Source: Candidatus Eisenbacteria bacterium (GTDB lineage: Bacteria > Orphanbacterota > Orphanbacteria > Orphanbacterales > Orphanbacteraceae). Taken from it: 40,650 bases of DNA. Location of the stretch: NCBI GenBank assembly GCA_016930695.1, contig JAFGGD010000028.1, positions 1 through 40,650 on the forward strand, read 5' to 3'. The translations under genes and the position numbers were made by a program. How positions within the stretch are numbered: the stretch's first letter is position 1; each line of letters starts with the position of its first letter. Shown here one piece after another: positions 10,349 through 14,782 of this stretch. Below the pieces are notes generated by a model. It ran no database searches. It was not told the origin of the DNA and saw nothing but the letters and a program-made list of their open reading frames with translations.

Positions 10349-10549
10349 CGTTCCGACTCCGTTTCGAAAGCGCGGGAAAGCAACATCCCCTCGTTCGTTT
10401 CTTGACGGGCGCGGCCGTTCGGCTTCGGCGCGCGACGACGCGCCCCCCTTCTCCGGGAGTGCGTGCGGCGCCCGAAGGGGATAAAATGCCACCGGCCCCG
10501 ATGGGAGACGGCGCTGAGCTTTCCGCGGGGGCGGGAAGAGGGGGAGGCG

Positions 10550-10972
10550 TTGCCTGAACGCGCGACCGTCCGCTGGCTCCGACACGACGCGGATCTCCGG
10601 CTGCGTCTCCGCGCGCCCGATCCGGAATCCCTCTTCCTGGCGGCCGCCCGAGCCGTCGTCGCGGCGTCGGTGGAGGGGACGCTCTCGGGGACGGATCGCC
10701 GCCGCGTCGCGCTTTCCGAGCCGGACCGGGAGAGCCTCCTCGTCGCCTGGTTGAACGAGATCCTCTACCTCGTTTCGTCGGGCGGTTTTCTCCCCGCCGG
10801 CGTGGAAGGGTTGCGCCTCGGGGGGGGCGATCTCTCGGCCGAGCTGATCGGCGGGCCGCCCGACCCGTCGCGCCACCGCTTTCTTCGGGAGATCAAGGCG
10901 GCGACATTCCACGATCTTTCGGTCGTGAAGACCGGAAGCGTATGGTCGGCGACCGTTCTTTTTGACGTATAA
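10550..10972 (+). CDS. Archease (RtcB-activating protein)
   Basis: Archease stimulates guanylylation and turnover of the RNA ligase RtcB. The product has the family start (WLRHDADLRLRLRAPDPESLFLAAARA), the 'LLVAWLNEILYL' helix and the C-terminal 'EIKAATFHDLSV' segment that carries the conserved metal-binding residues. An in-frame GTG at 10463 would add 29 basic residues unlike the family. The TTG at 10550 gives 140 residues, the usual length, though GGAGG is only two bases upstream. An AT-rich -10-like TAAAAT at 10482 also favours the shorter form. It ends 11 bp before rtcB, whose ribosome site overlaps the archease stop region. Confidence 0.85.
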   Translation: MPERATVRWLRHDADLRLRLRAPDPESLFLAAARAVVAASVEGTLSGTDRRRVALSEPDRESLLVAWLNEILYLVSSGGFLPAGVEGLRLGGGDLSAELIGGPPDPSRHRFLREIKAATFHDLSVVKTGSVWSATVLFDV

Positions 10973-10983
10973 AGGAGACCGTG

Positions 10984-12408
10984 ATGGCCGATCTGGAGCG
11001 CATCGACGAGTTCCGCTGGCGATTGCGGCGATCCGGGAAGATGCGGGTGCCCGGCGTGATCTACGCCGACGGCAAGGGGCTCGAGCGAATCGAGCGGGAC
11101 CGGAGCCTGGAGCAGGTGCGGAACGTAGCCCATCTCCCGGGCATCGTCCGCTGTTCCCTCGCCATGCCGGACATCCACTGGGGCTACGGTTTCCCGATCG
11201 GCGGGGTCGCCGCGATGGACGTCGAGGAGGGCGTGGTCTCGCCGGGGGGCGTTGGATACGACATCAACTGCGGTGTCCGGCTCGCCCGGACGAACCTGGA
11301 CCGGGAGGATATCCTCGCCGGGGGGGATCGGCTCCTCTCCGCGCTTTTCAGCCGAATCCCGTGCGGTGTCGGCGGCGGCGGCGATTGGAAACTGAACGAC
11401 CGGGAGATGCGGGACCTGCTCGAGCGCGGGGCGGGGTGGGCGGTGCGCCGCGGCTGCGGCTCGGCCGGAGACCTCCGGCGCACCGAGGAGGAAGGGTGTA
11501 TGGGTGGCGCGGACCCGGACGCGGTGAGCGCCCGCGCGATCGACCGGGGGCGAACCCAGGTGGGGACCCTCGGCTCGGGAAACCACTTCGTCGAGGTGGG
11601 TTGGGTGGAGACGATCTACGACGAACGGACCGCCGCGGCCTTCGGTCTGCGGGAGGGGATGGCGACCCTCCTCATCCACTGCGGCTCCCGGGGGCTGGGG
11701 CACCAGGTGTGCGGCGACTCGCTCCAGGCGATGCAGCGCCGGAGCGGGGGAGAAACGATCGAGATTCCGGACCGCCAGCTCGCCTGCGTGCCGATTCGCT
11801 CGTCGGCGGGACGGCGCTACCTGAGCGCCATGGCGGCGGCGGCGAACTACGGCTGGGCGAACCGCCAGGTCCTCCTGCACATGGCCCGCGAGGTTTTCGA
11901 CGGCGTCTTCCCGGGCTCACGCCTCGATCTCCTCTATGACGTCTCCCATAACATCGCCAAGACGGAGACCCACCGCGTGAAAGGGAACGAGTGGCGCCTA
12001 CTGGTGCATCGCAAAGGGGCGACGCGCGCCTTCCCCGCCAGCCACCGGGACGTGCCGGAGGAGTACCGCGCCGTCGGTCAACCGGTGCTCATCCCCGGCG
12101 ACATGGGAACCGCCTCCTACGTCCTCGTCGGGACGGAACGGGCGATGGAGGAGACCTTCGGCAGCACCTGCCACGGCGCCGGGCGGGTCAAGAGCCGTTC
12201 GCAGGCGAAGAAAGGGATCGGATTGGAGCGGTTGGAGAGGGAATTGGCCGAGGCGGGGGTGCGTTACCGCGCCCGATCACTGAAGACGTTGGTCGAGGAG
12301 GCGCCCTCCGCGTACAAGGAAGTGGACGGGGTGGTGCGCGTCGTCCACGGCGCCGGTATCGCCCGCAAGGTGGCCCGGCTCCGCCCGCTTCTGGTGATGA
12401 AGGGATGA
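10984..12408 (+). CDS. rtcB: RNA-splicing ligase RtcB
   Basis: The 474-residue enzyme joins 2',3'-cyclic phosphate or 3'-phosphate RNA ends to 5'-OH ends using GTP and Mn2+. Signature blocks are all present: GGVGYDINCGVR (metal-binding Cys), GTLGSGNHFVE, HCGSRGLGHQ, YDVSHNIAK, HRKGATRAFP, GDMGTASYV and TCHGAGR with the guanylylated histidine near the C-terminus. AAAGGAG (10971-10977) is optimally placed for the ATG at 10984; the GTG at 10981 is too close. The preceding archease is its known activator. The stop overlaps the next start (ATGA). The substrate in this organism is unknown; RNA repair is more likely than tRNA splicing in bacteria. Confidence 0.95.
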   Translation: MADLERIDEFRWRLRRSGKMRVPGVIYADGKGLERIERDRSLEQVRNVAHLPGIVRCSLAMPDIHWGYGFPIGGVAAMDVEEGVVSPGGVGYDINCGVRLARTNLDREDILAGGDRLLSALFSRIPCGVGGGGDWKLNDREMRDLLERGAGWAVRRGCGSAGDLRRTEEEGCMGGADPDAVSARAIDRGRTQVGTLGSGNHFVEVGWVETIYDERTAAAFGLREGMATLLIHCGSRGLGHQVCGDSLQAMQRRSGGETIEIPDRQLACVPIRSSAGRRYLSAMAAAANYGWANRQVLLHMAREVFDGVFPGSRLDLLYDVSHNIAKTETHRVKGNEWRLLVHRKGATRAFPASHRDVPEEYRAVGQPVLIPGDMGTASYVLVGTERAMEETFGSTCHGAGRVKSRSQAKKGIGLERLERELAEAGVRYRARSLKTLVEEAPSAYKEVDGVVRVVHGAGIARKVARLRPLLVMKG

Positions 12409-13196
12409 GGGGGCGGGGGGGCGATTGGGCGGAAAAGGGGTCGCCCGGACCGGAGCGTCCGGTTCTCCCGCCCGGCACGAAGGGGGAATCGGTTCCGGAG
12501 AGGCGCGCCGCGACTCGGCGGATGTTCGACGGAGTGAGCGGGCGTTACGACGCCCTGAACCGGGTCCTCTCCCTCGGGCTGGACCGGACGTGGCGGCGGC
12601 GGGTGGTCCGGTCGCTCGGTCTGGGTCGCGGCGATCGCTTTTTGGACGTGGCCTGCGGTACGGCGGACCTCGCGCTCGCGGCGGCCGAAGCGGCGCCGGA
12701 GGGGATCGTGGTGGGCGTCGATTTTTCGGCGCCCATGCTCCGCATCGCCCGCCGGAAGGCGGCCCGTCGCCGCACGACGGCCCGCATGGCTCTCGGCGCG
12801 GCGGAATCGCTCCCCTTCCGGGGGGGCTCCTTCGCCGCAGCCGGGATCGCTTTCGGTGTCCGCAACGTGCCGGACCGCGCCGCCGCGCTTCGCGAGATGG
12901 CCCGGGCGGTCCGTCCGGGAGGGCGTGTGGCGGTGCTCGAGTTCATCGAGGTGGACGGCGGTTTCCTGGATCGTATCGCCGGCTGGTACCTCCGCCGTCT
13001 TCTGCCGCGGATCGGCGGCCTCCTTTCCGATCGCTCGGCCTACGAGTATCTGACCCGTTCTGTGGAAGCGTTCCCCCCGCCGGATCGTTTTCTCGAGGAG
13101 ATGAGAGGGGCCGGGCTACTCGGGGCGGAGGCGCGAAGGCTGCCGCCGGCGCCGGTTTGGCTGTTCACGGGAACCGTTCCGCCGGCCGACGGGTAG
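12405..13196 (+). CDS. menG: Demethylmenaquinone methyltransferase (MenG/UbiE)
   Basis: The 263-residue class I SAM-dependent methyltransferase has the UbiE/MenG signature blocks. FDGVSGRYDALNRVLSLGLDRTWRR is at the N-terminus. The SAM-binding loop is FLDVACGTADLAL, followed by GVDFSAPML. FGVRNVPDRAAALREMARAVRPGG and an EFIE block follow. The enzyme performs the last step of menaquinone synthesis at the membrane, giving the low-potential quinone for respiration. About 35 extra residues precede the family core, so the true start may lie downstream of the overlapping ATG. Coupling to RtcB is unusual; no other men genes are in the window. Confidence 0.9.
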   Translation: MRGRGGDWAEKGSPGPERPVLPPGTKGESVPERRAATRRMFDGVSGRYDALNRVLSLGLDRTWRRRVVRSLGLGRGDRFLDVACGTADLALAAAEAAPEGIVVGVDFSAPMLRIARRKAARRRTTARMALGAAESLPFRGGSFAAAGIAFGVRNVPDRAAALREMARAVRPGGRVAVLEFIEVDGGFLDRIAGWYLRRLLPRIGGLLSDRSAYEYLTRSVEAFPPPDRFLEEMRGAGLLGAEARRLPPAPVWLFTGTVPPADG

Positions 13197-13243: not shown

Positions 13244-13357
13244 TTTCCGGTGGTACTTTTGTCCGGAGCGTGTGCGCGTCCCGCCGCCCGCGGGGCGCCG
13301 CGGCGACCGTCCGGATCGACGGGATTTCAACACGATGCGAGCACGAGGTGGTCAAGG

Positions 13358-14782
13358 ATGATTGGTAAGGACCGAGGATTATGGGTCGGACTCCTCGCTT
13401 TCCTCCTTCTCTCGACGCTGTCCGGGTGTTTCGAAACGGGAGAGAAGAGCTGGCGGAAGATCCGCATTTTCTATTCCAGCGACATGATCGGCGGCATCGA
13501 GCCGGTCGGGTGAAAGTCGAGCCGTAAAGGAGGCGTGGCCCGGCGGGCTGCCTACATCACCCGACTCGCGGAGAGCGACAGCGCTTCGACCCTGGTCTTG
13601 GACTGCGGGAACACGGTGGGTTCCGATTCCCGGCTCGAAAGAATCAAGGGGCAGTACCTTTTCGATGCCTACGGCATGATGGGAATGGACTGCTTCAACC
13701 TCGGCGGGAGCGATCTGCTTCTGGGACAGAACTGGCTTCTGGCTCAGGGGGAACGGACCGGAGTCCCGATCGTATCCGCCAACGTGTACTACGCGGACAC
13801 CGGCGAACGATTCCTCGCGCCCTACATCATTAAAAGGATCGGCGGAAAACGCTTCCTCGGATTCGAGTGGGGCGGGCTGAAGGTGGGCATCTTCGGCGTC
13901 CTCATGATGGAGCAGGAGCTGGAGCCGCTCCCTTGGAACCGGGACGGCGGCGAAAAGCGGCTCATCATCAAGGACGCCGCCACGATCGGCCGGGAGATCG
14001 TGGAGGAGCTGGAGCCGAAAACGGACCTGATCGTCTGTCTCGCCCAGACCGGTTGGCTGCAGGCCCGGGCGATCGCGCGGAGCGTGTCCGGCATCGATGC
14101 GATGATCGTGGGCGGGGGCGCCAGCGTGAAAACCAAACCGTACATGGTGAACGGCATTCCTCTCGTGATGCCCGGACAGCAGGGAAAGTACCTGGGTGTT
14201 CTCGAGGTCTATCTCGACGGGAACCGCAAAGTGGAGGACATCCGGGGCCGCGTGAAGGCTCTGGACAACACGGTGTCCGAAGATCCGGACATGGCGGATC
14301 TGCTCGTTCGATACAACAAAGAGCTGCAGGACCGGGGCGGGGAGCTGGCGCCCGGAACGAGCGATCTCGAGGACGTCCGCTATGTAGGCGTCGAGGAGTG
14401 CCGCTCCTGTCACGCCGTCGAGTACGAGGACTGGAAAAGCACGTCTCACGCCCATACATACAACACCCTGGTGGGAGAGAACCAGGAGAAGAATCCGAAC
14501 TGCCTGAAATGCCACACGACGGGATACGGGTTCTTTAACGGGTTTCACTCCGTCGAGAAGACGCCGGAGAGGATCAACGTGCAGTGCGAAGTCTGCCACG
14601 GCTACGGCATCGATCATGTGCAGTTCGAAAGGGAGGGGCATGTAGGCGAATGCGACCGGGACGCGAAACTCTCCTATCTGCTCGCGCCGGCGGAGGACCG
14701 CTGCATCGCCTGCCACGATTCCGAGCAGGACCCGACCTTCGACTATGAGAAGGATGTGAAGCTGGTCGATCATCGTCCCTGA
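13358..14782 (+). CDS. Selenocysteine-containing lipoprotein: UshA/metallophosphatase-like domain fused to a tetrahaem cytochrome c554-like domain
   Basis: One frame of 474 residues is crossed by a single TGA at 13511-13513, codon 52. Residues 1-24 form a lipoprotein signal peptide with lipobox LSGC. The N-terminal domain resembles 5'-nucleotidase/UshA-type metallophosphatases (RIFYSSDMIGGIEP, NLGGSDLLLG, DAMIVGGGA), though the metal-ligand motifs are degraded. At the TGA the sequence reads EPVG-(TGA)-KSSRKGGVARRA. Relatives known to me carry EPCGC-x(4-6)-GGLARRA there, so UGA replaces the second cysteine. The C-terminal domain has four CxxCH haem sites at about C348, C382, C410 and C449, of cytochrome c554 type. 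The ATG at 13358 has GAGGTGG at good spacing. Reading UGA as selenocysteine explains both halves. A nonsense mutation or sequencing error is the alternative. It is likely periplasmic and membrane-anchored; the reaction is unknown. Confidence 0.8.
13531..13553 (+). promoter_or_regulatory. Candidate bacterial SECIS hairpin
   Basis: AGGC (13531-13534) pairs with GCCT (13550-13553) and GCCC (13538-13541) with GGGC (13545-13548). A 5' bulge lies between them, and the apical loop GGC (13542-13544) starts 28 nt after the UGA. A loop at 16-37 nt with a G in its first two positions is what bacterial SECIS elements need for SelB recruitment. The fold was made by eye, and GC-rich sequence forms such hairpins readily, so this is supportive rather than decisive. 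Confidence 0.5.

Follow-up and report, generated by a model that had tools for sequence, protein, structure and literature searches.

Organization of the locus

The window, i.e. the whole stretch of 40,650 nucleotides that was analysed, corresponds to one contig (C28) of a 3.78 Mb host genome assembled in 60 contigs. On its forward strand, a single open frame runs from the ATG at 13358 to the stop TGA at 14780-14782, with one internal TGA at codon 52. A preliminary description of this DNA had placed a lipoprotein start and the long downstream frame in the same reading frame, split by this TGA only, and this was confirmed in the sequence. The deduced protein comprises a lipoprotein signal, a 5'-nucleotidase-like domain and a C-terminal tetrahaem domain, and the context across codon 52 reads EPVG-U-KSSRKGGVARRA. 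The following features are referred to below.

12525 to 13196, forward strand: UbiE/COQ5-type methyltransferase gene, upstream
13358 to 14782, forward strand: gene for a UshA-like selenoprotein of 474 aa, UGA52 being counted as Sec
13427 to 13429, forward strand: lipobox Cys24 in LSGC, following a signal peptide of residues 1-23
13505 to 13507, forward strand: GTC (Val50), two base changes from TGC
13511 to 13513, forward strand: in-frame TGA, Sec52
13535 to 13551, forward strand: SECIS-like hairpin, 7-bp stem, loop GGC at 13542-13544
14399 to 14413, forward strand: haem motif 1, CRSCH, residues 348-352
14501 to 14515, forward strand: haem motif 2, CLKCH, residues 382-386
14585 to 14599, forward strand: haem motif 3, CEVCH, residues 410-414
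14651 to 14653, forward strand: Cys432
14702 to 14716, forward strand: haem motif 4, CIACH, residues 449-453

The tetrahaem character proposed earlier was borne out by the four CXXCH motifs (at residues 348, 382, 410 and 449), whose residues were invariant across 26 full-length family sequences. The Pfam profile Cytochrome_C554 matched residues 347-415 (E 4e-15).

The surroundings of the gene were compared with those of its orthologues in six other genomes of the phylum. The UbiE/COQ5-type methyltransferase gene was syntenic in G003, G005 and G006; RtcB and UbiE both lay upstream of the orthologue in G005 and G006, as did UbiE in G003. Of the six loci compared, five had a gene for a beta-helix protein downstream. 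These shared flanking genes indicate that the window gene is the same gene as in these genomes, still at its ancestral location. In the window, the adjacent archease and RtcB RNA ligase genes (10463-12408, upstream) are ordinary. No clear partner was found among the neighbours RtcB, archease, UbiE, beta-helix protein and Hsp20. UbiE-type methyltransferases are a quinone-synthesis family, and the upstream copy may at best point faintly to a respiratory role.

Decoding of the in-frame UGA

All six orthologues carried TGA at the same codon, their proteins being 48-56% identical to that of the window, and a genome search over the whole phylum retrieved the same seven genomes only (the window's own and these six). 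In-frame identity to the orthologues was 41-56% over the 27 codons from the lipobox to the TGA and 49-57% over the approximately 420 codons after it. Comparison of the window with the orthologues gave pN < pS both before and after the TGA, and a dN/dS of about 0.2-0.4 after it. Similar identity on both sides, together with pN < pS, shows that the continuity of the frame across the TGA is more than chance. At a larger scale, 127 of 290 genomes from across the domain had a match to the NCBIfam model NF041198, and the motif was aligned at about 70 of these places. A few further matches in this wider survey were ordinary nucleotidases without the motif, and relatives sought in genome contigs with the single window protein as query were not found. 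The homologue alignment proposed in the preliminary description placed Sec or Cys at codon 52 in all 26 full-length family sequences, Cys-form homologues having their Cys at the column of Sec52. In all 47 UGA-bearing homologues, the UGA found in frame within the aligned region sat in one single column.

As had been anticipated, ordinary gene calling (table-11 ORF listing) yields a 415-aa frame from the GTG at 13535, from which the signal peptide and the motif are lost. This frame is what speaks for TGA13511 being an ordinary stop or damage, which would make the locus a pseudogene or put the start of the gene at this GTG. Such a reading is very improbable in view of the TGA at the same codon in six orthologues and of a protein conserved on both sides of it. 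In addition, the genome encodes the selenocysteine machinery, which the preliminary description had proposed to look for: selA (531 bits), selB (368 bits), selD (397 bits) and a tRNA-Sec (71.6 bits; tRNA-SeC with anticodon tca according to ARAGORN). With a start at GTG 13535, the protein would also lack its signal peptide, although the c-type haem motifs that it carries need export. A sequencing or assembly error for TGC or TGT, to which a 60-contig assembly might lend itself, has a negligible probability, since the same TGA was present in independent assemblies of six other species and the host genome itself contains a second UGA-bearing paralogue (L028). A genome-wide reassignment of TGA to an amino acid, e.g. 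Trp or Gly, has nothing in its favour beyond the open frame, and hardly any likelihood can be granted to it: TGA ends nine of the 16 window genes checked, and the residue aligned in Cys-form homologues is Cys. It was rejected on account of the TGA stops in neighbouring window genes.

The SECIS-like hairpin begins 21 nt downstream of the UGA, 28 nt separating the UGA from the loop, and reaches -8.9 kcal/mol when folded alone. As outlined in PMC13188914, the bSECIS model involves a loop of 3-9 nt with G in its first two places and a stem of 4-16 bp, at 16-37 nt from the UGA and with an MFE of at most -7.5; the window hairpin falls within all these limits (3-nt loop GGC, 7 bp, 28 nt, -8.9 kcal/mol). 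Its 7-bp stem was 99.1% paired over 16 family sequences drawn from the genomes under study, as against 34-56% when slid, and base changes on both sides were seen in two of the seven stem pairs. At 16-37 nt, a hairpin whose loop has G in its first two places was present in 46 of the 48 Sec forms versus 17 of the 29 Cys forms (Fisher p = 7e-5), and folding z-scores were lower in Sec forms than in Cys forms (Mann-Whitney p = 3e-4), both p-values overstating independence because the sequences are related. The conserved GGVARRA codons account for part of the hairpin sequence, and the 45-nt hairpin region of the window was no more stable than shuffled sequence (z 0.09), in a genome that is GC-rich. 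An Rfam search of 13300-13800 returned only a spurious SCARNA6 match below the gathering score.

At the sequence level, the insertion of selenocysteine at UGA52 is strongly supported. The replacement of a conserved Cys by UGA, i.e. a Sec/Cys pair, had been put forward from the window alone; it agrees with the TGA of the six orthologues, the Cys of the Cys forms and the bSECIS-like hairpin. Two findings that the preliminary description had listed as refuting it, a genome devoid of selenocysteine machinery and homologues lacking Cys/Sec at this position, were looked for and did not occur. This case also shows that standard gene calling trims the signal peptide and the active site from such proteins.

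The second UGA-bearing UshA-like gene of the host genome (L028, G000:C27:6312-7166, reverse strand) reads KPCGU. This paralogue was also observed in the six other genomes of the phylum (L029, L032, L036, L039, L040 and L048), and the two copies that were scored, at 249 and 232 bits, remained under the NF041198 cut-off. Two further PCGU copies (L049 in G006 and L050 in G005) have frames ending without a haem motif and encode the domain by itself as a selenoprotein.

Absence of the partner cysteine

The EPCGC motif on which the preliminary description relied is real in homologues, but the Val standing in the window where the first Cys of this motif belongs had been overlooked. All six orthologues have Cys (TGC or TGT) at the position of Val50. 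The 47 distinct UGA-bearing homologues, window and orthologues included, were distributed among CxU (44), CxxU (1), SxU (1) and VxU (1, the window), and the window copy, PVGU, was the only one without any Cys close to Sec. Homologues with Cys at the Sec column were CxC (26), CxxC (two) and TxC (one). The latter, L068 from G109, is a Cys form reading PTGC, in which the partner Cys is missing too. Two UGA forms lie near each other on one contig of G142: L092 (G142:C62:12680-13803) reads PSGUGC, with a Cys two residues after Sec and not two before, and L091 (G142:C62:10955-12111) reads PCPTU (CxxU). The DNA pattern P-V-G-U plus KGG, sought in one genome each of 84,980 species, gave five matches, none encoding a relative; the pattern holds the spacing constant and requires a Lys, so that the scan covers this spelling only.

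Sec52 may be genuine while Val50 results from an assembly error or from a recent inactivating change, in which case PVGU would not be a working variant. Val50 was seen in one genome only, the change from TGC to GTC concerns two adjacent bases, and Gln230 is found where four of the six orthologues have His. The window copy also forms the longest end branch among the orthologues (0.52), which leaves room for a weakened constraint, although pN < pS. On the other hand, two base differences are unlikely as a single error, and inactivation fits poorly with a gene that is otherwise conserved, with dN/dS as given above after the TGA, all haem motifs kept and both Sec codon and hairpin intact. This explanation was considered rather unlikely. 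It is proposed tentatively, from a single genome, that PVGU is a novel form of the motif which selection has maintained and which functions with Sec alone.

Taken as a whole, the gene very likely encodes an exported, lipid-anchored selenoprotein of family NF041198, with UGA52 as Sec in a putative redox site. SelB and tRNA-Sec would decode UGA52, steered by the hairpin just downstream, as its anatomy and conservation suggest, and the product would be exported and anchored to lipid. Sec lies in the loop that follows the first strand, at the point where active enzymes would have the beginning of their metal site. This site is predicted to carry out redox chemistry, electrons passing between Sec52 and the four haems of the C-terminal domain. 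Relatives pair Sec with the Cys two residues before it. In the window copy this partner is Val, so that Sec52 could not form a local selenenylsulfide and would have to act alone, to use a distant thiol or to be recycled by a partner. For a lone Sec, the direct reductant might conceivably be the haems, or else a newly gained thiol at a distance, e.g. Cys432; this proposal is equally tentative. Cys432 is present in the window copy only, the six orthologues having T, S or A, and lies in a loop (427-437) modelled with pLDDT below 50. A natural member that has Sec but not its Cys partner would make it possible to test which is the functional element, the CxU pair or Sec by itself.

Comparison with 5'-nucleotidases and UshA-like families

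The N-terminal domain matched 5'-nucleotidases in fold (TM about 0.55, 2.6 A), and to this extent the 'metallophosphatase-like' label of the preliminary description was appropriate. It did not extend to the metal site. Across the family, most of the dinuclear metal ligands of 5'-nucleotidases (DxH, GD, GNH, H and GH.H) have been replaced. The loss goes further in the window copy, where Asp42 was kept and the other positions were replaced (I44, N85, G117/S118, Q230 and G253). Phosphatase activity should not be assumed, since most of these positions are not kept. Compared with 5'-nucleotidase, UshA and CD73, the window protein shares the fold of the N-terminal domain but lacks the DxH, GNH and GGH metal-ligand motifs and has a haem domain in place of the substrate-binding C-terminal domain.

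With Cys entered in place of Sec, the window protein scored 275.3 bits against NF041198, 'UshA-like (seleno)protein' (UshA_like_PCGU), only just over the cut-off of 275. The protein belongs to the UshA-like selenoprotein family, known since 2008, and is not a new family. The claim of a 'new selenoprotein' was thus not retained: besides NF041198, the COG0737 UshA-like CxU selenoprotein is already tabulated in a 2008 publication (PMC2398784) and in reviews of 2022 and 2026 (PMC9312934 and PMC13188914), whose catalogue entries give no function for it. The 5'-nucleotidase-like domain, the Sec or Cys at the equivalent point of the loop, the GG(L/V)ARR that follows it and the C-terminal tetrahaem domain are all shared with NF041198. 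The family motif, however, is PCGU (CxU), whereas the window copy has PVGU and no neighbouring Cys. Kinship is indicated by score, orthology and synteny but the CxU feature is absent, and the protein was therefore filed as a variant rather than as a typical member.

Thiosulfohydrolase SoxB (TIGR04486), which is not known to have a haem domain, is of the same superfamily, but the window protein scored 58 bits, far under the cut-off of 550. NF049981, 'UshA-like selenoprotein family 2', has a related fold and Sec in the same general region. Its motif is given as CxxU in PMC13188914, and the window protein is not a member, with 47.4 bits against a cut-off of 140.
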